From a virus, in IMG/VR virus record IMGVR_UViG_3300034066_001346, positions 32,798 through 96,797 of that record: a stretch of 64,000 nt of DNA; one strand, given 5' to 3'. The number at the start of each line of letters is the position of its first letter. Within the stretch, counting starts at the first letter, position 1. The notes under the pieces are model-generated. The model worked only from the letters and a program-made list of their open reading frames with translations. It was not told the DNA's origin and searched no databases. Made by a program: the position numbers and the translations under genes. Of the stretch, positions 10,242-58,447 are shown piece after piece.

Positions 10242-10919
10242 CTATCTAATTGAGTTATTTATGTGAAGAAGCTTAATTGACTCTACGTTTACATGCTTTG
10301 GCATAGAAACAGACCACCTAACTGCCTCAGCAACATCCTCTGGAGTCAGCCTATTTTCAGCGTCACCCTGATTTCTGCTATTAACATTACCAGGTGCGAT
10401 CTCGGTAACCCTGACATTTTGGTATAGCATTTCCATTCTTAGCAGTTCAGATAGCGCAACCTCTGCATGCTTTGCTACTGTGTATCCAGAACCTCCACGA
10501 TATACATAATGACCGCATGTCGAAGTTATAAAAATAACATGCCCATCTTCATTCTTGATCATATTTGGGACCAGGAGTCTAGTAAGATTTACTGGTGCTA
10601 GAACATTTAGATTATAAGCGTATCTCCATCTATCCAATGAGTCATTTATTATTGGAAGGTTAGTTGCTCCCCCGCCTGCATTATTTACTAAAACAGATAC
10701 ATCTTTATCACCTAAATATGAAACAAACTGGTTTACTGCGTCCTCATCAGTAATGTCTAGAGTGTAAGACTCAATGTTTGGGTCACCTGACGCTAAATCT
10801 TCAATTTCATCTGTGCTTCTAGCAACAGCAATAACATGAAAGCCGTCAGAGGAAAGAGCCTTGCAGGTGGCCTTTCCAATACCAAAACTTGCTCCAGTTA
10901 CAATTGCAATCTTTTTCAT
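10242..10919 (-). CDS. Short-chain dehydrogenase/reductase (SDR)
   Basis: 225 residues, a complete classical SDR: TGASFGIG (8-15) binds NAD(P), NNAG (79-82) stabilises the fold, and the catalytic Ser133 (ITSTCGH), Tyr146 and Lys150 (YTVAK) are all present. It catalyses reversible oxidation of an alcohol or reduction of a ketone; the substrate cannot be read from sequence. ARS at 33-35, after the second strand, hints at NADP. It is the last gene of the carbamoyltransferase/SGNH cassette, separated by a single base from the SGNH gene, so it may act on the same sugar or nucleoside. Confidence 0.92.
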   Translation of the reverse strand: MKKIAIVTGASFGIGKATCKALSSDGFHVIAVARSTDEIEDLASGDPNIESYTLDITDEDAVNQFVSYLGDKDVSVLVNNAGGGATNLPIINDSLDRWRYAYNLNVLAPVNLTRLLVPNMIKNEDGHVIFITSTCGHYVYRGGSGYTVAKHAEVALSELLRMEMLYQNVRVTEIAPGNVNSRNQGDAENRLTPEDVAEAVRWSVSMPKHVNVESIKLLHINNSIR

Positions 10920-11691: not shown

Positions 11692-11710
11692 AGCCCCCTC
11701 ATTTATTAAG

Positions 11711-11783
11711 TGCCCTTGGCAGGAGTCGAACCTGCGGCCAGTCGGGTAGAAACCGAATGCTCTGTCCTCTGAGCTACAAAGGC
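11711..11783 (-). tRNA. tRNA-Arg (anticodon TCT)
   Basis: 73 nt, drawn by hand: acceptor GCCTTTG/CAAGGGC with one G-U, a four-pair D stem, anticodon loop TTTCTAC with TCT at 34-36, T arm GCAGG-TTCGACT-CCTGC, discriminator A, no encoded CCA. One mismatch lies at the top of the anticodon stem. It reads AGA, a common Arg codon in this A+T-rich genome. Confidence 0.93.
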
Positions 11784-12869: not shown

Positions 12870-14294
12870 TTAAGAAATTATTTCTTTATCGTAAGCTTTA
12901 TTCCATAAAATAATATCATCACTATCATTTAAAAGCGGCTGTCCTTTTATATTTAAGCTGGTGTTTAGTAATACTGGAACTCCAGTATGCCAGTACCATT
13001 GTCTTAATAAAAAATGAAGCTGTGGATGATCATATTCGTTTACTGTTTGAACCCTAGATGTTCCATCTACATGAACTACAGATGGAATTTTATCAGGCTG
13101 CTTGCATTTAACTGAATACTGCATGTATGGAGTTGATTTTGTTGGCATATCAAACCACTCATCTGCAAAATGCTCAAGAACAACTGGAGCGAAGGGCCTG
13201 AATAGCTCTCTCTGCTTAATTTGATTTACCTTATCCTTTATATCTGGATCTCTTGGGTCTGCCAATATGCTTCTATTCCCAAATGCTCTCGGCCCATACT
13301 CAGCTCTACCTGATGCTACTGCAGCAATTTTATTTTCTTTTAGTTCTGCAAGCACTCTGTCTACTGGCCACCTTTCACCAATATTAGTTCCTAGATACGG
13401 ACCCTTCCAATTCAAATGCTTACCGTATAGTGCTGCTGCTGCACCAAGGGAGCTTCCTGCGTCACCAGGATTTGGCATAATCCATATGTTATTAAATATT
13501 TTCCATAGAGCAGTATTTGCAGAACAATTTAAAGCGCAACCACCCATAAATACTAAATTGTTTTTACCAGTTATTTGCTTTGCCATGCTCATAAATTCCA
13601 TGAGTCTACTCTGATAAACAGCTTGAACGGCAGCGGCAATATCAAATTTATCTTGATCGCTGATTACTTCATTCCAATCATATATACCTTTATGAAAGTT
13701 ATATTTTTGCTTATGATATGAAGGGAAATATTCACCAACCTTTTTCAAGTATTTATTTGAATCTCCGTACCCAGCCATGCCCATCATTATGTACTCTTCT
13801 TGATTTGGCATTAGACCAATTAGCTCTGTAAATGCAGAATAAAATAATCCAAAGCTGACTGGGTAGTTTTGCTTGTATTTTAATTTGATTTTTTCATTTT
13901 CACCAGACCAAACCGTGGAGGTGTTGTACTCTCCTATAGCATCTAATACGACTACAACTGCATCCTTAAATGAGCTTGTATAGTATCCAGCTGCGGCATG
14001 TGAGTAATGATGTTTAAAATAATGAACTGGTACGTCGAGTGGTATATTTGGCTTCCAGTCTCCAGCTCCGCCCCTTAAAAATATTCTAGACCTTTTTAGC
14101 CAAGGCTTCTCGTAATAAGCAATTGCATCTGGAGTTCCATATTCTAAAGCATTCTGAATAATTTCTTCATTATTATACCAATCATTTTTTTTCTTGCTAT
14201 ATCTTTCTGCATGAGCAGCAAAAAGTATATCGCCATCTTTTATTAAAGACACCGATGCGTCATGTGAAGTTTCATTTATACCTAATATTATAAT
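12870..14294 (-). CDS. NodU/CmcH-family O-carbamoyltransferase, probable ATT start
   Basis: 474 residues if started at ATT 14294. The family's N-terminal motif, here IILGINETSHDAS, lies upstream of the first standard start (GTG 14252), and GAAAGG sits eight bases before the ATT. The Kae1-like domain shows HYSHAAAGYYTS and VVLDAIGEYNTS; the C-terminal YrdC-like part has RAEYGPRAFGNRSILADPR and PVLLNTSLNIKGQP. These enzymes make carbamoyl-adenylate from carbamoyl phosphate and ATP and transfer the carbamoyl group to a hydroxyl of a sugar or nucleoside. SGNH-like paralogues on both sides suggest a joint modification pathway. The gene overlaps the preceding one by 7 bases. Confidence 0.9.
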   Translation of the reverse strand: MIILGINETSHDASVSLIKDGDILFAAHAERYSKKKNDWYNNEEIIQNALEYGTPDAIAYYEKPWLKRSRIFLRGGAGDWKPNIPLDVPVHYFKHHYSHAAAGYYTSSFKDAVVVVLDAIGEYNTSTVWSGENEKIKLKYKQNYPVSFGLFYSAFTELIGLMPNQEEYIMMGMAGYGDSNKYLKKVGEYFPSYHKQKYNFHKGIYDWNEVISDQDKFDIAAAVQAVYQSRLMEFMSMAKQITGKNNLVFMGGCALNCSANTALWKIFNNIWIMPNPGDAGSSLGAAAALYGKHLNWKGPYLGTNIGERWPVDRVLAELKENKIAAVASGRAEYGPRAFGNRSILADPRDPDIKDKVNQIKQRELFRPFAPVVLEHFADEWFDMPTKSTPYMQYSVKCKQPDKIPSVVHVDGTSRVQTVNEYDHPQLHFLLRQWYWHTGVPVLLNTSLNIKGQPLLNDSDDIILWNKAYDKEIIS

Positions 14295-29952: not shown

Positions 29953-29972
29953 TTCCGCCGTTTTCTATTATG

Positions 29973-30045
29973 TACCAAAGGTGGGATTCGAACCCACGCT
30001 GTATAGATTTTAAGTCTACCGCCTCTACCGCTGGGCTACTCTGGC
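29973..30045 (-). tRNA. tRNA with Leu anticodon TAA and short variable loop
   Basis: 73 nt: acceptor GCCAGAG/CTTTGGT (two G-U), a three-pair D stem with GG in the loop, anticodon stem GTAGA/TCTAT with loop CTTAAAA (TAA at 34-36), variable region of five bases, T arm GTGGG-TTCGAAT-CCCAC, discriminator A, no encoded CCA. Normal bacterial tRNA-Leu has a long variable arm, absent here. It would read UUA. Confidence 0.9.
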
Positions 30046-46745: not shown

Positions 46746-47213
46746 TTAAACCTCTTCCAGAGATAAAGACACATTCCAATGAGGTTGTATACCACGCTTT
46801 ACAATTGTAAAAGTTGCTTCTGTACATGAAACATTATATTCTTCATAACCAGATGACTCTTGGCTTGTTCCAGTCTTTGCCATATTTACTCTTATTTTAA
46901 AGGTTCCCGTTCCGCCATTTTTATAAAATTCTCTTAAATCTTCTGCTCCCCATGCACCATCAACGGTTAAAGTTCTATATGAAGGAAGCATTTCCCAACT
47001 TAGATTAAATGATTTCTTATCTGCAACATGGTACTTTCTTAAAGTACCATTTGACATTCTTCTTTTAGATTCAATTCTTTGTGTTCCAATTGTAAATTCT
47101 GATCTATTGTGCTCTGTAACTTTGTTCCAAGCTAATGAAGTTCCAGCTGGAGTTGCTAATAAATCTTTAGCTTCAATTAATAATATTGAGCCTCTTGGCA
47201 TCATCATGCTCAT
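46746..47213 (-). CDS. Distal-tail-like protein
   Basis: 155 residues, beta-rich: TEHNRSEFTIGTQRIESKRR, KKSFNLSWEMLPS, GTGTFKIRVNMAKT. Length and position directly after the tape measure suggest a small distal tail (Dit-like) protein. It overlaps the tape-measure stop by four bases. No decisive motif. Confidence 0.6.
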   Translation of the reverse strand: MSMMMPRGSILLIEAKDLLATPAGTSLAWNKVTEHNRSEFTIGTQRIESKRRMSNGTLRKYHVADKKSFNLSWEMLPSYRTLTVDGAWGAEDLREFYKNGGTGTFKIRVNMAKTGTSQESSGYEEYNVSCTEATFTIVKRGIQPHWNVSLSLEEV

Positions 47214-50200
47214 ACTGTAATTCCTCCACCAGTCATGCTCTGTCTTCTTGCTCCACGGGCATCCATTATATTAACTATATGGTTTGCAAGCTCTTTAACA
47301 TCTTGTCCCTGTGCGCCATTAACAACAATTCCTCCAGCATTATAGTGGTGAATTGATCCACCTTTATTATACCCTGGAACTTGATTGCTAGCAATACCTA
47401 CCGTGCTTGTTGGAATGTTATATGTAGGAGAAGCCATTCCTCCGTTGGCAAATCCTGGTATAGACATTTTTGGATTAAATGAGGTGTTTACAATTCCCCC
47501 ATTGGCAAATTTAGGAATTTGTATTTTGCCATTGTTAACAAATCCCCCGCCTGCTGCTTCTTCCACATTTTTTAGCTGTTCTTTGATATCAGAAATTATT
47601 GACATAAAATCTTTTTCAGATAAAGCTCCCCTAGCATATAGACCTACAGCTGATTTTTGAACTGCTAAAAGATCTTTTTCATCTGCATAAGTTTTTCCAC
47701 TTGTATATTTGCCAAAACGTGTAAACATTAAAAGTGCGCCTAAAGCTTTTTGCGTATCACTTATTCCAACACCTATATCTCCTGTTTGAGCTCTTTGTGC
47801 ATTTAAAATATATTCAAATGGGTTGTGTCCTGAGCCATGAGCTAAGTTGTCTATGTCGCTAGCATTATGTCCGCCATCAAACCTGACTCCAAGATTCGCA
47901 GCCATTTCTGCTATCTCTTCTTTGTTTAAAGAGCTAAATTCTCCTCTAACGGCATACCTGTATTTTTCATCTATTCCAATTTGTTTCTTTGCTTTATCTA
48001 TTGCTAGTATTTGCAAAATTCTTGAAGCGCTTAAATACTCATCAGATTCATAATTGCTTCGTGCTGGCATGTAAAATTCTTCTGAGTGACTACCTCCCAT
48101 AGCATTGTCTGTACGTGCTATAGGTTTTAAATTACCATTTTCGTTAACTGCTTGTAATATTTGAGCAAGCTCTGATTGAGAATATTTTTCTTTTGCTAAA
48201 TAAAATATTTCTTTTGCTGAAAAATCTTCTGCAATTATTGGAGGTTCTTCTCCATCTTTATACAAATTAAGTTCTTTTAATTTTGCTATATAATCAGATT
48301 CTTCAAGTGGAAAGCCTGAGCTTAGCTCTCCTTCTTTTTTACTGTAGTGAAAAGGCTTTCCAAATCTTTGCAAGAAATAACTGTCTACTGAATGAAGCTG
48401 TTCTGGTTTTCCATTGTACTTCATTAAATTAGAAAGTGTGCTTACTATAAATGGTCTATCTGGCTTCCATTCACCCTGCATATGTGACTGAACTGCGTCA
48501 TAAATTCCAAAGTGTCTTGATGTTCTAGCTGCGGCTAATTGTTCTAGAGTGCCGACAGTTCCTTCAGGGAGGCCTTTTGGACCAAAAAATCTAGAAAGTA
48601 TGTGGGTCGCTGCATCTTTTTCAAAAAGATCTCCCTTGCCATCTGTTGATGGGAAATCGTCATTAAATATTCTTATCATAGGAATATCTCTTGGTGTTAA
48701 AGGAGTGTAAGAAGGATCCCAGCCTCTTGCTTTCAGGTCTGCAATTTCTTTTTTAGTTAAAGGCTTTTCTCCACGCACCCCATGCAAGCCACCTCTTGGG
48801 CCGCCTTGTCGTGCAATATTGGCAGCTACCGCTTCTTGTTGTAGTCTGACATTTTCTATATATTCCTGAACCATTTTTGTAAGTAGTGGTGAAATTGCTT
48901 TTGTTTTAGTTTTAATAGCAACATCATCTCTTGTATTGCCACGCATTGCAGAAATTAATTGTGCAAGCCCTGCTGGATCTAGTGACTCTGAAAGCTCTGG
49001 CCTTCTAAGGCCAAAAAGATGTGGGGATGCTAAATCTTGTGGATCAACCTTTTTTAAATTTATGCTACCTGATGCTAGCATATTCATTAAAAATTCTTTT
49101 ACTTCTCTATCGCCCCATTGGTATCCTGAATCCATTTTATCTAATAATCTTCTAGCTTTTGTATGGTTTGGATCTTTTTTCAAAATATAGGATAGGATTC
49201 CTTCTGGTGTTGTAGGAATAATATCAGTTACCTGATGGCTTGCTAATAATGAGCTTAAATTTTCAGTACGACCTTGAAAAACAACTGCGTCATTTCCAAA
49301 ACCGCTTCCTGAATGCACTGGTACATTTTTCCCTTCATGAATTACAAATGGCGGGTAAACGTTATTTGGCTTAAAATCATCTGAAGAAATTTTTACTTGT
49401 GGTTTTTGAATCATTGAAGATATTTTATTTTCGGCAAATGGTCTTGATGCGCCGATGATTGCTGCAGTTATAGCATTAGATGTAAATTTTGGAACTGCTG
49501 ATGTTGCATATGGTATAGAACCCTTTGGAAGAAGAGAGCCTAATCCAGGAAGTCCTTTTGACAATCCATATCCTTCAGCTAGTCCTCTTATCGAAGCGTT
49601 TCCAGCTGCTGCTGGCAATAAGAATGAACCAAAATCTAATCCAACTTGTGCAGCAATTTCTGGAAGTACAGACTTAACTCCTTGTTGTTTTATTTTTTCT
49701 TGTTGTGATTTTAATCCTTCTATGTTTGTAGAAGCAATTGGGTTTGTACCAGTAAAGGCTGCTTGTACTCTGTCTAAAGATAATATTGCTGGAAATAAAA
49801 AGTTGTCATAAATTTTTTGAGCAACAGATTTTGGAGCTTTATAATTACTTGCCATGTGTCCAGCAGGCAAACGTCTGCGGCCTGATCTTCTACCTGATGA
49901 AGATTCCATTTTTTGTTTTAGGGCAGCTGATACAGAGCCCATTGATGACATTCCTAAACTATGTGGGGCGCCTGAATGAGTATGTCCTACTGGTCCGCCA
50001 GCATGGAACATTAGCGGTCCTAAACCGTAAGCACCATTGCCAATGCCACCCGTAGAGGCGCCAGAGCCTGCAAGACGCATAGGGTCTCTGTCTATGCCCA
50101 TTCCTGGGCTTGCAAATGGCTTGCGTGGCTGCTCAAGCATCTGATGCATGTAGTCTGAATGCTGTGGGACCGAACCGCTAAATTTAAGTCCTGGTATTTC

Positions 50201-53200
50201 TGTTCCGCCCCAAATATCCATGCCTGGGCTGCGTGGCCCAATAAATCTTGAAAGTTCTCCCCAATATTGACCGAAAGGATTACCTATAGGTCTTCCAGAT
50301 CTAGAGTAAGGAACACCTGGCTTTCTTTGTCTTGGTACTGTTAGTGGCCCCTTAATCCAATTTCCAGAATCAGTTAAGCTGTTTACAACTTTTCCACCTT
50401 CTGCAAACTTCTTTATGTTTACCTTTGTGCCTGCAAAAATTCTTGACCCGCCCATATATTTTGGATCATTTAGCTGTGGATTCATTTCCATTAATTGCTT
50501 GACGCTAATACCATACTTTGCAGCAATTGCAGATAATGTATCTCCTCTGCCTACTGTGTATCTATCATTTTCATAATCTGACTTAGCATCATCTGCGCTG
50601 TAATATTCTGGTGTGCCATATCCATACTTAATAGTATCTACTGGCTTATATGAAGGTCTTCCAAATCCTACAACTGGAGCATTCTTCATATTGTATTGTC
50701 TTACTTTTGCATGTACTCCGCCGCCGCTTCTTTGACTTCCAGAACCTGATGTATTTCCTTCTATAGTTGAAACTGCATTGCTACTTAAAACATTTCTTAC
50801 TAACCCTACGTGAGAAATTCTATTAACGCCATCTCCTGGGAAATCCATGAAAGCTAGATCTCCACGCTTTGGATTCATCTTTGTCCACTTGCCACTCTTC
50901 ATAAATGACTGAGCTCCACCAGGAGTCCAAATCATGCTTGCTAAATCTACCCCAGCATTTTTTGCTGCCCAATTTATGAATGCTCCGCACCATGCTATGT
51001 ATCTGCTCTGCAGATCATAAGCCTTTTGTGCAAATCTACCAAATATAGTGTCGTTGTTCTTTCCTTCTTTATATCCAAGCATAGACTCAGCTGCTTTAAT
51101 CATTGAGTCTACTGTGCCTAGAGTGCTTTCTTTTCCGCCTCTCATCTTACTTACTTTTCCGCCATTTGCAAATCTACCAGCATTTAAATCATGAAGGAAT
51201 GATGGACCAAATTCTTTTTCAGCTTTTTTAACTGAGTCTGCTTTTATTACCCACTCACCGTCTGAAAGCATTGCAGGAATTGAATCAGATGTTGAAGTTC
51301 CTGGACCACTTACATTTCCTCCGCCATCATAATTAGTTGCATAGCCGCCCATAGCAAGTTTTCGGGCTCTTGATGGGAATATCTTTGCATCATATCCAGA
51401 CTCAACAACATATTTAACTCCATCAACTTCAAAATATTTACCCTTTTGATATTTATTTGTATTAATAATATATGTCAGCCCTGCTTTAGTTATTGTTCCA
51501 TCTTTAGACTTTAGTGGTGCTGCTTCTGCGGCAGTTGTTCCCCCTGGTGCAACTTTAGGAAGAGTTGCGGCGTTAACCTTAAATGGATCCTCTTTTGTTC
51601 CACTTCCAGTTCCTGATGTCGCTCCAGCAAATTTATCTACTGCAAGAATAAACTTATCTACAGCTGATGCAAATGCTACATTTTTATTATCATTTACTGC
51701 CTTTGCTAAAGCCTGTGCAAGCTGAAGTTCTGGAGACATAGCAACTGGCTTGCCACCAGCTTGTGAAGGAGGCTGGTTAATTGCAGGATAGTTGCTAAGC
51801 ATTTCATCTGCAGCTTTTTTAATTGATCCGCCAGCTTCTCTCATTTCATTAAAGATTTGAATTAGAAGCTTTTCGTCTGACTTAGAGAAGTTGCCCCCTG
51901 GATTTCTTGTTACAATATCATTTATTCTTGCTCTAAAGTCAGCAATAGTGGCAAGGTCTGCAGACTTTTTAGCAGCTGCTGAGCCTGCTGTGGCGTTATT
52001 GTCTGCTGCATCATCTATTATTTTTTGCAATCTTTCAATTTCTTTATTTTGTTGCTCAATGCGCTTTTCATAATCATTTGTAATTGATTCTCTTGTAATC
52101 TGTCTTTGTCTATCTTCTTGCAATTTCTTTATGTTAAGTTGAGATTGAGCAGCAGCAGCAAGATCACCAGCAGCCAAGAACTCCTGATATCTTATCTGCT
52201 CTTCCTTTAAAGATTTAGCAAAGTCGGCTTCAGCCTGCTGAACATCCAAAAGCTTTAATCTAGTATTTCTTTCTTTTTCTAACTGATTTATAACCTTCTG
52301 GATTGACTTTATTTTATCCTTGTAATAATCGGCATCAAACTTTGCAGCAGCCTTTTGAGCCTTAATTGCATTTTCAGAGGCTTTCTTTGCTGCATCATAA
52401 AGTTTTGCTAAAGCAGAGAGGGGGTTATTTGAATCTGTTGATGAAGTTACTTCATTTAAAGCACCTTGGTATGCAGCAAGTTGTCTGGCAAATTCTACAG
52501 CTTCCTTTCCAGTCATAGCTGCAATATTTATTTTATCTGCTAAACCAGCTGCGTATATCGCTGTTTTTGCATAAATACTTTGAAGGGTTTCTCCATTTTT
52601 TAATATAGTTGCATAAACTAAATTTTGTTGTTTAAGACCATCTAAAGTCTTTTTATCTATTTCATTTGTTGCGCCTTTTATTTTTCCTATTTCATCCAGG
52701 GTCTGCTTAAGTGCATCAGCTTCTGTTAATTCTGTTTTACCATCTTCTCCGCCTTTTGATCCAACCAAAGAATCTTGGTAGGTAGAAAGAACATTAATCA
52801 TATTCTCTACACCAGTATTTAGCTCTTCTAAGAATCCCTTACTTGTGCTACCGTTCATTGCTACTATTGCATTTGAAACCATTTTAACTGATGCTGCGGC
52901 AGCAGATGCTCTGTCTGTAATTTGTTTAAATGAATCAGAAGATATTGCTGAAACTGACTGACCTGATTTATTTGATGCAGCAATTAAAGCATAAATTTTA
53001 TTTGTTGCTTGTTGCACAGACATTCCCATAGATACATATTGAGACTTAAGCGATGTAGCTAATTGATTAACCTTAGATGAATCTATATTATTAAACGCTG
53101 CTAAAGTTTCTGGCATTTCTTTTTTAACTCTAGCAGTTTCTTCTCTTAATTCTTTAATTGTAAAAGTTAATCCACTTATACCAGTTTTTGTATTTGAGTC

Positions 53201-56200
53201 ATACGATGCACTTGCTTTAGCACGCTGCAAATCTAGCTGAGCATTTATATCTTTTAATCTAGTAGATAGGTCTTTGTACTTTCCAGAAAGACCCGCCTCT
53301 CCTAAAGTTTTTTCATTAGCTCCAAATGCTAGTCTATTTGCCTTACCAGCATCTTCATACTTTTTCTTTAGATCTAATAATACTTTTCCTAAAGCTATTG
53401 CAGATGTTACTGCTAATCCAAACCCAGCAAACTTCATAACTTTTGATAATGTAAGTGTTCCTTTTATTAAAAATGGCAAAATTGATGCTACTTGTCCTAA
53501 CATAGAGCCAATCATAAAGCCCGTGTTTCCACCCATAGCTTGTCCAGCCACTCCTCCGCCAACTGCTGTTGCCATGCTAAATACTTGAGCTTTAGCTCCG
53601 TATGGATTTATCCCTGACGAACCTTTTGTTATTGGAGTCATTCCCATTTGAGTTGCTAAAGGGGTTTCGTATCCAGGCATAGTAGGAATAGCAGGAAGTC
53701 CATATCCTGTTCTGTTCTTAACAATATCTCCGCCTGGAATTATTCCGCCTGAATTTCTAGGAACAAATATTTCTGGTCCGTTTTCTCCAACAAGGTAAGG
53801 TCTGTTTGCATTAACTGGACCACCCATGGCACGTGTACCGTCAACAACTGTTTCTAATTTCAATGTTCCATTTTCATATCCAACTACTCTAAACTTTCCA
53901 CCAAAAATAGATTCTTGTTCGGATCTTGAGTTATGTCCAGCTACCTTTTGTCCAAATGGCGCTGAGAATTTTGCATCTGGGAATATGTCAGAAGCTGGAA
54001 CAACATTTCTATTTTTTACAGATGCCTCTATAAGTATTGATGACCCATCTGCGGATGCTCCGTGTCCTGGCGCAAATAGGGAAGCAATATCTCTATTTTT
54101 ACTCCATGATGAACGGCGCATAATAAATTCTTGACCAATAAGTCCAGATGGATCTCCACTTAATCTTGCCTGATCAATTGCCTCTATAATATTTTGAGGA
54201 AGAGGGTTTGCTCTATTTTTGCTTAGTTTTAATCCTCTATAAAGAGTTCCGCTAAACTTTCTAGACAACTTCTTCATTAATTCTGTAGCGCCTGGAGTCT
54301 GTAATATTCCATAGTTACCAGCCATGTATTGACGAAGTATATACTTCCCACGCTCTTCTTCAGATCCAATTGGGAACTGTCGCATAACATTTTGTCTTGC
54401 GAATCTATCGTCTTGATAAATTACTTCTCTTGTCCACTCATAATCATCTTGTCTATCTTTTGGAACCATGGTTCTACCAATTTGAAGTGGACCATGAAGT
54501 GGATCTTGATTTCCTAATGTGTATTGATACCCTGGCATTCTAAAGCGTTCTTGTGGCTTCCACCTTGCAGTTAATCTGGCAATTGCACTAGATGCTAATG
54601 ATGGAACTCCATAGCCGTATCTTCCTCTTTGTATATTGCCTCCTGGAATCATTCCTCCAAGATTTGCAGCAAACGGTGTGGCTGATGAATTTCTGGAGAA
54701 TCTGGTCATTGCTCCAATTTCTGCAGAGTTTACTAGTTGTCCCCACATGGCTTCATTCATTAAGCCATTTCTTCTTTCTACGAGAGCATTTAGTCTGCTA
54801 GCTGCGAGCTCTGCAACTTGTTGTGCTTGAGCCTCTGGAACACCAATATCTTTTAGTTTTCCTAAAAGACTTTGCATGTCTTGCCAGCCTACTTCTCTCC
54901 ATGAATCTTTCCAGCCTTTTCCATCTGAAGTTCTTGCTGGAGATCCGTCGCCCTTAATTCTTTGATTAAATTTTGAAGTGTTTTTTACCCATGTCGTTGA
55001 CAATGCAGTAAGTGTTGATAATTTACTGCCTTGAGGTACTGATACGCCTAAAGATCTTAATACTGATACTGGAATCTGATCTTCTGGACCGTACCCTAAA
55101 GATTCAAGTCTTCTTACAAATGCAGGAGGAAAAGCATGAACTAATACATCTCCCCTTTTTGTTGGAGTAATTCCATATCTCTTATTAGTCTCATCAGAAT
55201 AAATTGCACTAGATCTTGAACGTGCTGAAGAATATTGTATAGAACCTGATCCTGGCTCTGAAACAGATTGTGTATTAGAACCAGTTGTATCCCATCTATT
55301 TCTGCTAGCTCTCCAGTATCTTGTTCCTGGAGATCTACCTCCTCCTATCATGGAAGATCTAGCTAAATAGTTGGCGATTAAAGATGCTGGATTTAGACCG
55401 TAGTTCTTTTTATTTCTAGATACATCTCCACCGAATGCGTATCCATTATTAGCTGCGTCAACTGCAGCATACAGTTCTGGATCTCTATGTATACCTGGGC
55501 CAAAAATAGTTTCTTTTGGAGTTAGCATAGCCTTCATTGTAGATCCGCTATTACTAAATGTTGAAGGTGCAGCATCTACTAAATCTTTATTGCGTGGATC
55601 TAGCGAAGCTTGTTGATTTAAAACATATCCGTTTAACGGAACATTTCCAAACCTATCGTCATAGTTAATAGATGACGGACCTGATACTACTGTCTTATTT
55701 GGCCCAAAGCTCTCAATGTCTCCACCGACATTAAATCTTTTTGGTCTTGTTGTTTCAATACTATAAGGAGCACCATATGTTTTAACTCCAAGCACTCTGG
55801 CAATGGAATTAAATAATGTTCTTGTTCTTCCTGGACGAGTAAGCTCTTTCATGTTTGCCTTACCAGTAACAGGATCAAACGCTGGTTGGTCTACGAGGGG
55901 TAGCTGTGTTAAGTTTATTGTTCTTCCTTGTGCAGTAGCAACTTCTGTTGCTGCCTGCCCCATCATCATTTCAATCTGTCTATTTAAAGCAACAACTCTT
56001 GCTCTTGCTTGATCAACAGTTATTTTTGATGCTTGCAGCTGTGCAACAATTTCAGCAGATTCTGTTGCAGCTAAAGTTGTTATTCTTGACATTTGAGGAA
56101 GAAGGGCTTGATATGAATCTGATAATGAAGTTGTAATTAATCCAGTTGCTGCAACTTCACGCTTTAGTAAAGCAATTTCTGCTTCCGACTGCATTGCAAG

Positions 56201-58447
56201 TGCGCCAGTCATTGCGTGCCACTTTGCTGCTTCTCCTGCAACTATTCCAGTAGAAACACCCTTTATTGCAGATACTCCAGCAACCTTTGGCAGGTCTGAG
56301 CTCATGTACATCTGCGGATTATTGCTAATCGCATTGTTTACTTTAGGTGCTCCTGGAACAATTCCAAATATAGTCTGGGCTTCTCTTTCAGCTGGGGTCA
56401 TAGCTGAAACAGGATTTGGGTGAGAATAAGCTCTTGTATCCCTTGGAGAGATGTATCTACTTGTAGGATCTACTTCTCTTATAGCTGTGCCAGTCATAAC
56501 AACTTGACCAGCAACAGTTGAAATTGTAGGAGCTGCGCTTACGCCAGAATTTGCTCTTGCCTGCAATATTCTAAATTCTTCATTTAAGTTATGTAGTGCT
56601 GTAGATAAAACCGTAGCTGCTTTTGCATCACTATAGAATGTTGTTTCTAATAGGTTACCAGCTTTGTTGGCAGCTAAAATTTCTGGAGTTAATAATTTCC
56701 ATCCTTCTCCGCCTTTAAATAACGCTCTAAAGTGTGCAGCACCTTTAACAACATACCCAAGGAAGTTTGCAAGCACACCAGTTAACATAATTATTGGGCC
56801 AGTTAATGCTGTAAATCCTGCCGCAAATGTTAATAGTTTTTTGATTGGGTCTGGCAGCTTGTTAGCAAATTGAACTACCTTGTCGATAATATTTATAAAA
56901 AATGTTCCGATGTTTAAGAACTGCTCTCCTACTCCAGCTAAGCTGGCCTTTAAAGATTCTAGCGCTCTCTTATATTTACCAGATGCAGACTCTGTAATCT
57001 GAGTTAATTCTCGGTTAGCAATATTGGCTAAATCTTGTGTACTAGTTTTCATTAAGTCTAGTACTTGTAATGTCTGACTTCCTTCTTTACCTAAGTTTTC
57101 AAATAAGGCAGATAGTCTTGCAAACTGAAATTTTCCAAAAAGCTGCTCAATCGCCTTTGATTTACTTAATGGGTCAAGTTTGTCTAGAGCAGATTGAAGC
57201 TCTAACATCATTCCAGTTAAATTGCCAGCATTTGAAGTAACTATATTTTCAAGATCTATTCCAAATCCTTGGAACATTTCTTTAGCTACCTTGGTTGGGT
57301 TAATAAGGGATGCTAATGAGGACTTGATTGCATTTGCACCTTCAGATGCATTTACTCCGCCCTCTTTCATTGCAGTTAAATATAATGCTAAATCTTGGAC
57401 TGATCCGCCAAGACTTTGAATTACTGGTCCTGCTTTTGGAATCGCTTCTACTAAATCTGCAAGAGATGTGGATGTCTGGTTTTCAACTGCGTTTAAAAAG
57501 TTAATTGATTCAGAAAGTTCTGTTGTATTTTGCTTAAAAGCTGTCTGAATTGCAAGTGTGGCTTTCATTGCTTCTTGCCTATCAACTTCACCAAGTATGG
57601 AAAGTCTTGTAGTTTCTTGAGTTGATCTGATTAGATCATCTCCCTGCTTTCCTGTTGCAGCAATATCCGCAGCTAGTGCGATTGTTTCTTTGTAAGAAGC
57701 TCCGTAAGCAGCTGCTAATTCTCTTGCTGTGGCAGAAACTTCTTTTCTTACTTTTGCTAACTCTGTTGCAGAAGTTTGTGCTACCCCACCATAAACTTTT
57801 GTTAATCTTACAAGTTGCTCGTCTGCTTCTCTAAATGCTTTTGATGCAGCAATCCCAAAAGCTGTTATTGGTACGGTTAGTCCTACAGTTAACTGGCGTC
57901 CTGCCCACTGAGTATTTTTACCCCAGTTAATTAGTTGGACTCCGCCATCTTGAATAACTTTATTAAATATCTGCATCTCTTGCTTGAGAAGAGCTGTTCT
58001 ATTTTTAGTAGCATCCAGACCTCTTGGTATCTGAACGTTAAACTGCATTAAGCCTTCGGCATTTCTACCTAGGGGCTGAAGTATTGCATTTTGTAATTGA
58101 ACTTGCTGTCTTGCTAACTCCCTAATCATTCCACCAGAAGTTCTAGTGTGATCTTGGAATGTTCTATAGTAATCTTTAAGCTTAAGTCTTCCCTGATCTA
58201 AGTTTTTACCAAATTTTTCTACATCAGAAGAAAGACTTACGAAGTGGGTTGAGAACTGACCAGTGCTTCTAAGTGTTGCTGAAAAGCCTTGCTGTATCTT
58301 TGCTGCATCCATCGCAAGTGCTTTGTTCGTTGTTGCTAAAGCACCTTTTAATTGAGCGAGCTCTGCCGTAGCCTTTTGCACATTAGCAATAAGACTTGAG
58401 AAATTAGCATTAGCTACTATATTCGTAACTATTGTCTCATTGGCCAT
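47210..58447 (-). CDS. Giant tape-measure protein with ADP-ribosyltransferase-like, CHAP and LysM domains
   Basis: 3745 residues. The N-terminal tape-measure core (about 185-500) includes YGASYKETIALAADIAATGK and LALYLTAMKEGGVNASEGAN, followed by hydrophobic segments (about 545-575, 1660-1700). An ADP-ribosyltransferase-like domain lies at about 1395-1525 (Arg1404, Ser1447, Glu1510-X-Glu1512). A coiled coil follows (about 2030-2150), then DSIPAMLSDGEWVIKAD, a CHAP peptidase (about 2440-2600, AWCGAF, ISHVGLV) and a LysM (about 2628-2681, GDTLSAIAAKYGI). Residues about 3040-3625 form an unassigned globular region. The protein sets tail length and is ejected at infection; its CHAP and LysM parts should open and bind peptidoglycan. 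The gene follows the tail chaperones, as usual. Confidence 0.93.
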   Translation of the reverse strand: MANETIVTNIVANANFSSLIANVQKATAELAQLKGALATTNKALAMDAAKIQQGFSATLRSTGQFSTHFVSLSSDVEKFGKNLDQGRLKLKDYYRTFQDHTRTSGGMIRELARQQVQLQNAILQPLGRNAEGLMQFNVQIPRGLDATKNRTALLKQEMQIFNKVIQDGGVQLINWGKNTQWAGRQLTVGLTVPITAFGIAASKAFREADEQLVRLTKVYGGVAQTSATELAKVRKEVSATARELAAAYGASYKETIALAADIAATGKQGDDLIRSTQETTRLSILGEVDRQEAMKATLAIQTAFKQNTTELSESINFLNAVENQTSTSLADLVEAIPKAGPVIQSLGGSVQDLALYLTAMKEGGVNASEGANAIKSSLASLINPTKVAKEMFQGFGIDLENIVTSNAGNLTGMMLELQSALDKLDPLSKSKAIEQLFGKFQFARLSALFENLGKEGSQTLQVLDLMKTSTQDLANIANRELTQITESASGKYKRALESLKASLAGVGEQFLNIGTFFINIIDKVVQFANKLPDPIKKLLTFAAGFTALTGPIIMLTGVLANFLGYVVKGAAHFRALFKGGEGWKLLTPEILAANKAGNLLETTFYSDAKAATVLSTALHNLNEEFRILQARANSGVSAAPTISTVAGQVVMTGTAIREVDPTSRYISPRDTRAYSHPNPVSAMTPAEREAQTIFGIVPGAPKVNNAISNNPQMYMSSDLPKVAGVSAIKGVSTGIVAGEAAKWHAMTGALAMQSEAEIALLKREVAATGLITTSLSDSYQALLPQMSRITTLAATESAEIVAQLQASKITVDQARARVVALNRQIEMMMGQAATEVATAQGRTINLTQLPLVDQPAFDPVTGKANMKELTRPGRTRTLFNSIARVLGVKTYGAPYSIETTRPKRFNVGGDIESFGPNKTVVSGPSSINYDDRFGNVPLNGYVLNQQASLDPRNKDLVDAAPSTFSNSGSTMKAMLTPKETIFGPGIHRDPELYAAVDAANNGYAFGGDVSRNKKNYGLNPASLIANYLARSSMIGGGRSPGTRYWRASRNRWDTTGSNTQSVSEPGSGSIQYSSARSRSSAIYSDETNKRYGITPTKRGDVLVHAFPPAFVRRLESLGYGPEDQIPVSVLRSLGVSVPQGSKLSTLTALSTTWVKNTSKFNQRIKGDGSPARTSDGKGWKDSWREVGWQDMQSLLGKLKDIGVPEAQAQQVAELAASRLNALVERRNGLMNEAMWGQLVNSAEIGAMTRFSRNSSATPFAANLGGMIPGGNIQRGRYGYGVPSLASSAIARLTARWKPQERFRMPGYQYTLGNQDPLHGPLQIGRTMVPKDRQDDYEWTREVIYQDDRFARQNVMRQFPIGSEEERGKYILRQYMAGNYGILQTPGATELMKKLSRKFSGTLYRGLKLSKNRANPLPQNIIEAIDQARLSGDPSGLIGQEFIMRRSSWSKNRDIASLFAPGHGASADGSSILIEASVKNRNVVPASDIFPDAKFSAPFGQKVAGHNSRSEQESIFGGKFRVVGYENGTLKLETVVDGTRAMGGPVNANRPYLVGENGPEIFVPRNSGGIIPGGDIVKNRTGYGLPAIPTMPGYETPLATQMGMTPITKGSSGINPYGAKAQVFSMATAVGGGVAGQAMGGNTGFMIGSMLGQVASILPFLIKGTLTLSKVMKFAGFGLAVTSAIALGKVLLDLKKKYEDAGKANRLAFGANEKTLGEAGLSGKYKDLSTRLKDINAQLDLQRAKASASYDSNTKTGISGLTFTIKELREETARVKKEMPETLAAFNNIDSSKVNQLATSLKSQYVSMGMSVQQATNKIYALIAASNKSGQSVSAISSDSFKQITDRASAAAASVKMVSNAIVAMNGSTSKGFLEELNTGVENMINVLSTYQDSLVGSKGGEDGKTELTEADALKQTLDEIGKIKGATNEIDKKTLDGLKQQNLVYATILKNGETLQSIYAKTAIYAAGLADKINIAAMTGKEAVEFARQLAAYQGALNEVTSSTDSNNPLSALAKLYDAAKKASENAIKAQKAAAKFDADYYKDKIKSIQKVINQLEKERNTRLKLLDVQQAEADFAKSLKEEQIRYQEFLAAGDLAAAAQSQLNIKKLQEDRQRQITRESITNDYEKRIEQQNKEIERLQKIIDDAADNNATAGSAAAKKSADLATIADFRARINDIVTRNPGGNFSKSDEKLLIQIFNEMREAGGSIKKAADEMLSNYPAINQPPSQAGGKPVAMSPELQLAQALAKAVNDNKNVAFASAVDKFILAVDKFAGATSGTGSGTKEDPFKVNAATLPKVAPGGTTAAEAAPLKSKDGTITKAGLTYIINTNKYQKGKYFEVDGVKYVVESGYDAKIFPSRARKLAMGGYATNYDGGGNVSGPGTSTSDSIPAMLSDGEWVIKADSVKKAEKEFGPSFLHDLNAGRFANGGKVSKMRGGKESTLGTVDSMIKAAESMLGYKEGKNNDTIFGRFAQKAYDLQSRYIAWCGAFINWAAKNAGVDLASMIWTPGGAQSFMKSGKWTKMNPKRGDLAFMDFPGDGVNRISHVGLVRNVLSSNAVSTIEGNTSGSGSQRSGGGVHAKVRQYNMKNAPVVGFGRPSYKPVDTIKYGYGTPEYYSADDAKSDYENDRYTVGRGDTLSAIAAKYGISVKQLMEMNPQLNDPKYMGGSRIFAGTKVNIKKFAEGGKVVNSLTDSGNWIKGPLTVPRQRKPGVPYSRSGRPIGNPFGQYWGELSRFIGPRSPGMDIWGGTEIPGLKFSGSVPQHSDYMHQMLEQPRKPFASPGMGIDRDPMRLAGSGASTGGIGNGAYGLGPLMFHAGGPVGHTHSGAPHSLGMSSMGSVSAALKQKMESSSGRRSGRRRLPAGHMASNYKAPKSVAQKIYDNFLFPAILSLDRVQAAFTGTNPIASTNIEGLKSQQEKIKQQGVKSVLPEIAAQVGLDFGSFLLPAAAGNASIRGLAEGYGLSKGLPGLGSLLPKGSIPYATSAVPKFTSNAITAAIIGASRPFAENKISSMIQKPQVKISSDDFKPNNVYPPFVIHEGKNVPVHSGSGFGNDAVVFQGRTENLSSLLASHQVTDIIPTTPEGILSYILKKDPNHTKARRLLDKMDSGYQWGDREVKEFLMNMLASGSINLKKVDPQDLASPHLFGLRRPELSESLDPAGLAQLISAMRGNTRDDVAIKTKTKAISPLLTKMVQEYIENVRLQQEAVAANIARQGGPRGGLHGVRGEKPLTKKEIADLKARGWDPSYTPLTPRDIPMIRIFNDDFPSTDGKGDLFEKDAATHILSRFFGPKGLPEGTVGTLEQLAAARTSRHFGIYDAVQSHMQGEWKPDRPFIVSTLSNLMKYNGKPEQLHSVDSYFLQRFGKPFHYSKKEGELSSGFPLEESDYIAKLKELNLYKDGEEPPIIAEDFSAKEIFYLAKEKYSQSELAQILQAVNENGNLKPIARTDNAMGGSHSEEFYMPARSNYESDEYLSASRILQILAIDKAKKQIGIDEKYRYAVRGEFSSLNKEEIAEMAANLGVRFDGGHNASDIDNLAHGSGHNPFEYILNAQRAQTGDIGVGISDTQKALGALLMFTRFGKYTSGKTYADEKDLLAVQKSAVGLYARGALSEKDFMSIISDIKEQLKNVEEAAGGGFVNNGKIQIPKFANGGIVNTSFNPKMSIPGFANGGMASPTYNIPTSTVGIASNQVPGYNKGGSIHHYNAGGIVVNGAQGQDVKELANHIVNIMDARGARRQSMTGGGITV
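50405..50565 (-). other. LysM domain within the tape measure
   Basis: YTVGRGDTLSAIAAKYGISV with an N-PQL turn and a V-N-I end is a complete LysM, binding N-acetylglucosamine of peptidoglycan. It lies directly after the CHAP domain. Confidence 0.9.
50640..51130 (-). other. CHAP peptidase domain within the tape measure
   Basis: AWCGAFINWAAKNAG (catalytic Cys), TPGGAQSFMKSGKW, NRISHVGLV (His), EGNTSGSG and VGFGRPSY align motif by motif with the free lysin at 9545-10159. Predicted to cut the wall locally during DNA entry. Confidence 0.92.
53873..54265 (-). other. ADP-ribosyltransferase-like domain within the tape measure
   Basis: Residues about 1395-1525. GTLYRGLKLSK carries Arg1404, RRSSWSKNRDIASLFA the Ser-X-Ser (1447-1449), ILIEASVK a middle strand, and SEQESIFGGKFRVV the Glu1510-X-Glu1512. 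Order and spacing match R-S-E class ADP-ribosyltransferases; E-X-E usually marks arginine-specific enzymes. Confidence 0.72.

Follow-up and report, generated by a model that had tools for sequence, protein, structure and literature searches.

The 64,000-nucleotide window analysed here (bases 32798-96797 of the 96,797-base IMG/VR virus record IMGVR_UViG_3300034066_001346) encodes a tape-measure protein (TMP) of 3745 residues in a single open reading frame (ORF) on the minus strand (47210..58447). Residues ~1358-1538 of this protein (53834..54376, minus strand) are assigned, from an AlphaFold2 model, Foldseek comparisons and the alignment of relatives, to an ADP-ribosyltransferase (ART) domain of the R-S-E type, and both the ART fold and its active site are supported. 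The domain is probably a catalytically competent mono-ADP-ribosyltransferase with an E-x-E pair, carried by the TMP as an exchangeable cassette and delivered through the tail at infection. Outside the window, the remaining 32.8 kb of the record were searched for ART matches only.

Active-site conservation and predicted fold

A sequence-only reading had located an ART-like domain in residues 1395-1525 (window positions 54265 to 53873), and every element of the motif it described is found where it had been placed. R1404 is the strand 1 arginine of the LYRG motif (54236..54238), S1447-W-S1449 constitutes the S-x-S motif of strand 2 (54101..54109) and E1510-Q-E1512 forms the E-x-E pair with the predicted catalytic glutamate (53912..53920), all on the minus strand. 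The location of the domain is thus retained while its limits are not, the domain being slightly larger (~1358-1538) and taking in the N-terminal helices 'KYILRQYMAGNYGIL' and a last strand, 'LKLETVV'. More than 30 loci were collected from three scans of viral contigs, and conservation was counted over 29 unique sequences, down to ~27-29% identity. R1404, S1447 and W1448 are each present in 29/29 unique relatives, position 1449 is occupied by Ser in 27 and by Thr in 2, and E1510 and E1512 are both retained in 28/28, one of the 29 being unaligned there. The position flanked by the two glutamates accepts Gln, Lys, Ser, Ala, Glu or His. Pairwise ratios of non-synonymous to synonymous substitution rates (dN/dS) are 0.13-0.36. 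The low dN/dS together with the invariant R/S/E columns identifies the frame as a protein under purifying selection, in which the catalytic positions do not change and the one between the glutamates is free. The sequence-only reading had made its claim depend on conservation in relatives, which holds for R, S and both E without exception.

The AlphaFold2 model, built on 20 relatives, displays a predicted local distance difference test (pLDDT) score of 77.7 and a predicted template-modelling (pTM) score of 0.71. It starts with helices, followed by strand 67-78, in which R1404 is model residue 75, helix 89-101 and strand 111-120, which bears S-W-S. A short helix and strand 141-154 come next, and the E-x-E then leads to strands 183-196 and 199-204. 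In the model the strand order is that of ARTs, and R, S-x-S and E-x-E are positioned in the canonical strands. Foldseek against the PDB returns ARTs at all ranks from 1 to 12 (best E 9.5e-6, probability 1.00), with Vis, HopU1, CDTa, iota-toxin Ia, ExoS and ART2.2 among the neighbours, while the first non-ART entry appears only at E 0.33. Against viral models the top named match is the ART of Gordonia phage GMA2 (E 1.7e-6), and most of the top named matches are ARTs. The predicted structure, on which that reading had also made its claim depend, displays the ART strand order with ARTs as its only significant solved neighbours, and the R-S-E order claimed from the sequence is supported by this strand order, by the Foldseek matches and by the invariant residues.

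The comparison with known families gives a divided outcome, since ARTs fill the top 12 Foldseek positions while the curated cut-off of PF03496 (ADPrib_exo_Tox) is not reached, this profile finding nothing up to E 10 in 20 relatives. The GMA2 ART itself belongs to PF03496 (E 1.9e-13). Because the PF03496 threshold is not reached, we place the domain within the ART superfamily, of R-S-E type and outside PF03496. The ART region is unmatched by Pfam, PHROG or PDB sequence searches, the matches returned from the PDB by sequence being judged chance. A match to the TMPs of Gordonia phages DumpTruck and Xenia2 (E ~1) was likewise rejected as chance; it is without the ART motif and lies beside peptidase- and transglycosylase-like sequence. 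No relatives of the GMA2 ART were found in viral contigs. In the same phage, orf10 (L146:7981-10632), a putative structural protein, displays a sub-threshold C-terminal match to the Acb1/2H phosphoesterases (E 0.0008), and from its sequence this C-terminus is possibly a virion-borne domain against cyclic-oligonucleotide-based antiphage signalling (anti-CBASS).

The carrier, the cassette and the polymorphic slots

The 3745-residue ORF matches PhageMin_Tail in the Pfam scan (PF10145, E 1.8e-26), with the conserved TMP domain at residues 239-438 (57134..57733, minus strand), and PHROG_10030 tape measure at E 3.6e-122. These matches bear out the tape-measure carrier named by the sequence-only reading, and its size and its place after a major tail protein and chaperone-sized genes are those of a tape measure. 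A major-tail-like gene, two small chaperone-sized genes, the TMP gene and two minor-tail genes follow one another in the order seen in Streptomyces phages LilMartin and Coruscant, and the two proteins after the TMP align with LilMartin gp57 and gp58. By TMP the closest isolates are Streptomyces and Gordonia phages (~40%), and the carrier is probably a long-tailed phage with a host among the Actinomycetota. The ART is missing from both Streptomyces phage TMPs checked, and two genome-contig scans revealed no prophage or host genome with the ART or with the window TMP. Directly C-terminal of the ART cassette lies a glycine zipper, G1631xxxG1635xxxG1639xxxG1643xxxG, with two hydrophobic segments (residues 1631-1691; 53375..53557, minus strand), and GxxxG runs occur at the corresponding place in most related TMPs. 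A long linker region follows, leading to a CHAP peptidoglycan hydrolase domain (residues 2484-2565; 50753..50998, minus strand; PF05257, E 6.4e-7) and a LysM cell-wall binding domain (residues 2630-2678; 50414..50560, minus strand; PF01476, E 2.9e-12).

The cassette itself extends approximately over residues ~1270-1566 (53750..54640, minus strand), with GG(M/I)xP-type linkers on each side. Its limits follow from a pair of related loci, L070 with the ART and L071 without it, whose TMPs are ~77% identical where alignable and near-identical beside the junction. L071 lacks some 300 residues of L070 (roughly 1248-1551) that comprise the entire ART between the linker motifs, and the ART is a discrete, removable cassette within the TMP. 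The conserved part of the TMP (residues 200-560) matched at least 587 relatives, of which the nearest 80 were retained; 12 of the 38 non-redundant complete TMPs among them contain the ART, in a sample skewed towards the window's own kin that provides no frequency estimate. The ART-family matches listed in the fetched loci all lie in long TMP-like ORFs, and the very distant carriers L029 and L027 match tape-measure PHROGs at E 3e-101 and 1.7e-121, respectively. The guanine-cytosine content of the cassette, overall (GC) and at third codon positions (GC3), is the same as in the remainder of the TMP gene, so composition shows no sign of recent acquisition. Complete TMPs of the family mostly span ~2,070 to 3,890 residues, and effector cassettes, if this is what they are, would explain part of this variation in size.

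Comparison with the shortest TMPs reveals two variable places, slot A (~960 to 1240-1800), which contains the ART of the window, and slot B at the C-terminus. In L093, L099-L101, L105, L107, L121 and others, slot A is occupied by a different domain with kinase-like motifs. This conserved cassette (L101:12467-14785, L105:9016-11325 and others) displays 'VFVKP', 'LRGDKDLSPGN' and 'ADxGT'; its model is poor (pLDDT 54) and the top PDB matches, although nearly all of kinase fold, are not significant (E 0.06), which gives only a hint of a kinase-like cassette. Slot B modules recur in differing combinations across the TMPs, none reaches a Pfam cut-off, and their labels were assigned by eye and motif, save for a weak ART-PolyVal match in the L094 TMP (PF18760, E 0.027). 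One of them is an H-Y-type ART-like domain (L082, L046, L094, L091). A second R-S-E-like domain occurs in L082, L099 and L058, another kinase-like segment in L082 and L046, and a segment with HEGAH, a putative metallopeptidase, in L094 and L091. The C-termini of the L082 (16634-20845) and L046 TMPs combine 'FHGS..GMGFYGTSSKAEADLY' (H-Y ART-like), 'HGGN..IDFG' (kinase-like) and the second R-S-E-like domain in one chain, and the ART-PolyVal-like and HEGAH segments lie in the TMP C-termini L094:15689-18667 and L091:15656-19189. In L101:17615-20998 the C-terminal slot holds an OmpA-like peptidoglycan-binding domain (PF00691, E 1.6e-18), where the window TMP has CHAP and LysM. The slot B module of the window (residues 2947-3650; 47498..49609, minus strand), delimited by comparison with related TMPs, is common to few of them (87% in L081, 59% in L101), is not found in the other distinct TMPs tested and has no Pfam match; it may be another effector. 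We regard it as an evenly balanced proposition that the TMPs of this phage group form a general polymorphic chassis for effector delivery, with one slot before the glycine zipper and one at the C-terminus accepting interchangeable enzyme cassettes (R-S-E ART, H-Y-type ART, kinase-like, metallopeptidase-like), and that tails as well as heads would then inject host-modifying enzymes.

Elsewhere in the window, the ORF at 12870-14252 (minus strand) has a start, 'GDILFAAHAERYSKKKND', that by eye recalls NodU/CmcH-type carbamoyltransferases, and near it lies a short-chain dehydrogenase-like ORF (10242-10919), also identified by eye. Genes for tRNA Arg-TCT and tRNA Leu-TAA are found at 11710-11783 and 29972-30045.

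Proposed mode of action and its alternatives

In the proposed mechanism, the ART would be synthesised as part of the TMP and, at the few copies in which this protein is present, lie enclosed within the tail lumen. When the tail opens, the CHAP/LysM part would act on the cell wall and the glycine zipper with its hydrophobic segments would insert in the membrane. Inside the tube the ART would be threaded or unfolded, and it is presumed to survive as a segment of the mature TMP; it would afterwards refold, meet host NAD+ and ADP-ribosylate a host target, probably on arginine, as infection starts. The T5 TMP forms a trimer inside the tail tube and is expelled on opening, with a hydrophobic stretch proposed as a membrane channel and a muralytic domain proposed to be released, possibly refolding (PMC10038345). 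The window TMP has matching parts in its GxxxG repeats and hydrophobic segments, CHAP and LysM. The glycine zippers of TMPs and of Tde1, a type VI secretion system (T6SS) effector, have been linked to membrane passage (PMC10240207). The position of the ART just before the zipper would therefore put an NAD+-dependent enzyme within the ejected chain. So few copies (three per tail in T5) imply that the enzyme would work catalytically on a target that is local or of low abundance. An E-x-E pair is typical of arginine transferases, and here it suggests arginine as the acceptor.

Several observations weigh against this mechanism or the assignment beneath it. Because the ART precedes the hydrophobic segment in the chain, it may remain on the side of the membrane facing the tube. 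A tail lumen of ~4 nm would leave little room for about three folded copies, the small number per virion limits the dose, and no immunity or target gene was identified. The Foldseek TM-scores against the PDB are modest (0.33-0.45 query-normalised, root-mean-square deviation 6-10 Å), so the detailed geometry of the fold is not established. No Pfam ART family produces a sequence-profile match up to E 10 in the window TMP or 20 relatives, and hhalign against five phage VIP2-like ARTs, whose alignment of the E-x-E/FRVV/LxxE end (E 0.0018) counts in favour of the assignment, covers this end only and returns a probability of only 15%. Of 2000 shuffled TMPs, 375 (19%) also contain a loosely defined R / S-x-[ST] / E-x-E pattern at ART-like distances. 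The motif by itself lies within chance and was dropped as evidence for an ART, so the weight is carried by the conservation among relatives and by the fold match.

A real ART might instead act before or during assembly, within the cell that produces the phage or on the virion itself, with the late-made TMP modifying tail or host proteins or itself. The conservation of the active site fits this explanation equally well, the N-terminal position relative to the membrane segment lends cytoplasmic delivery no support and the cassette is dispensable, the L071 TMP being otherwise intact. We nevertheless judge it unlikely, since a toxin-like enzyme has little to do late in a dying host, the presence of CHAP and LysM in this chain points to action at the envelope of a new host, and the virion-linked enzymes of described phages have been interpreted as injected effectors (PMC5512222, PMC9503650). 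Slightly less probable again is an NAD+ glycohydrolase of ART fold that breaks down the NAD+ of the host or counteracts defence signalling based on NAD+, with no protein modification. An effector family with such a fold and NAD(P) glycohydrolase activity, Tne5, is reported (PMC13285283), and NAD+ systems are recurrent in virus-host conflict (PMC9503650). A handful of copies per virion would, however, drain cellular NAD+ slowly. The E-x-E alone cannot tell the two chemistries apart, but as a pair typical of arginine transferases it argues for protein modification.

That the ART fold is catalytically dead and retained as a structural or binding insert of the tail ruler would suit a structural carrier, yet the active-site R, S, E and E never change whereas the residue that separates the glutamates does, a pattern of catalysis and not of packing, and functional-looking TMPs exist without the cassette; this explanation is very improbable. 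A chance motif in a different fold, in line with the unmatched Pfam and PHROG searches, the motif frequency in shuffled TMPs and the modest TM-scores, is scarcely credible given that 12/12 of the best PDB fold matches and most of the best named viral ones are ARTs and that the active-site columns are invariant.

Comparison with known systems

Delivery of an ART with the virion is already known, and what is new in the tail-delivered ART proposed here is its tape-measure carrier. The sequence-only reading knew of no described tape-measure ART; none was found either in the open-access papers examined, many of them by title and abstract, and this is no proof of absence. The word 'tape' is absent from the texts of two relevant papers, a survey of viral NAD+ and ADP-ribose systems that covers head-packaged ARTs and MuF or portal fusions (PMC9503650) and the description of polyvalent proteins (PMC5512222).

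The ARTs fused to MuF or portal proteins, as in Microbacterium phage Percival gp4 (PMC7302621) and Stenotrophomonas phage AXL1 gp16 (PMC9206674), and the MuF polymorphic toxins (PMC5576092) are a near precedent. As in the window, the MuF/portal ARTs are fused to a virion structural protein and interpreted as delivered with the DNA. Their carrier, in contrast, resides in the head, whereas that of the window is the tail tape measure, and a Pfam scan of the whole window TMP reveals no MuF domain. T4 Alt is similarly an R-S-E ART associated with the virion, whose action is expected as infection begins, but it is a separate head-packaged protein, whereas the ART of the window and those of its relatives lie inside the TMP ORF, where the enzyme would be present in few copies and beside a presumed membrane-inserting segment. 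The PF03496 exoenzymes and phage VIP2-like ARTs (Gordonia phage GMA2 orf14 and relatives) share the predicted fold, the R/S-x-S/E-x-E order and the FRVV..L.LE ending; they are stand-alone or have other carriers and display SST or STS, in contrast to the SWS of the window domain, which the PF03496 model does not recognise.

Polyvalent proteins (Iyer et al. 2017, PMC5512222), among which ARTs are common, resemble the TMPs described here in that the latter, too, may unite several unrelated enzyme-like domains in one protein. The window TMP combines the ART fold with CHAP, and the further cassettes of its relatives are suggested by motifs, weak matches and a low-confidence model; the window differs in that its carrier is a TMP and its ART is of R-S-E and not of H-Y-D type. 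Muralytic TMPs (T5 pb2, which undergoes cleavage, and TMPs with CHAP/LysM) likewise contain embedded enzymes that are expelled at infection (PMC10038345), but these act on the cell wall, whereas the ART of the window is predicted to have an NAD+-dependent intracellular target. If the tail-delivered ART is real, whether globular cassettes count towards tail length becomes testable. Being a covalent part of a structural gene, such an ART is visible in genomes. Enzymes with which phages act as infection begins have been described as cargo of the head (T4 Alt, MuF and portal fusions), and an ART in the tail ruler would constitute a second route, one tied to the penetration of the membrane and timed to precede or accompany the DNA.
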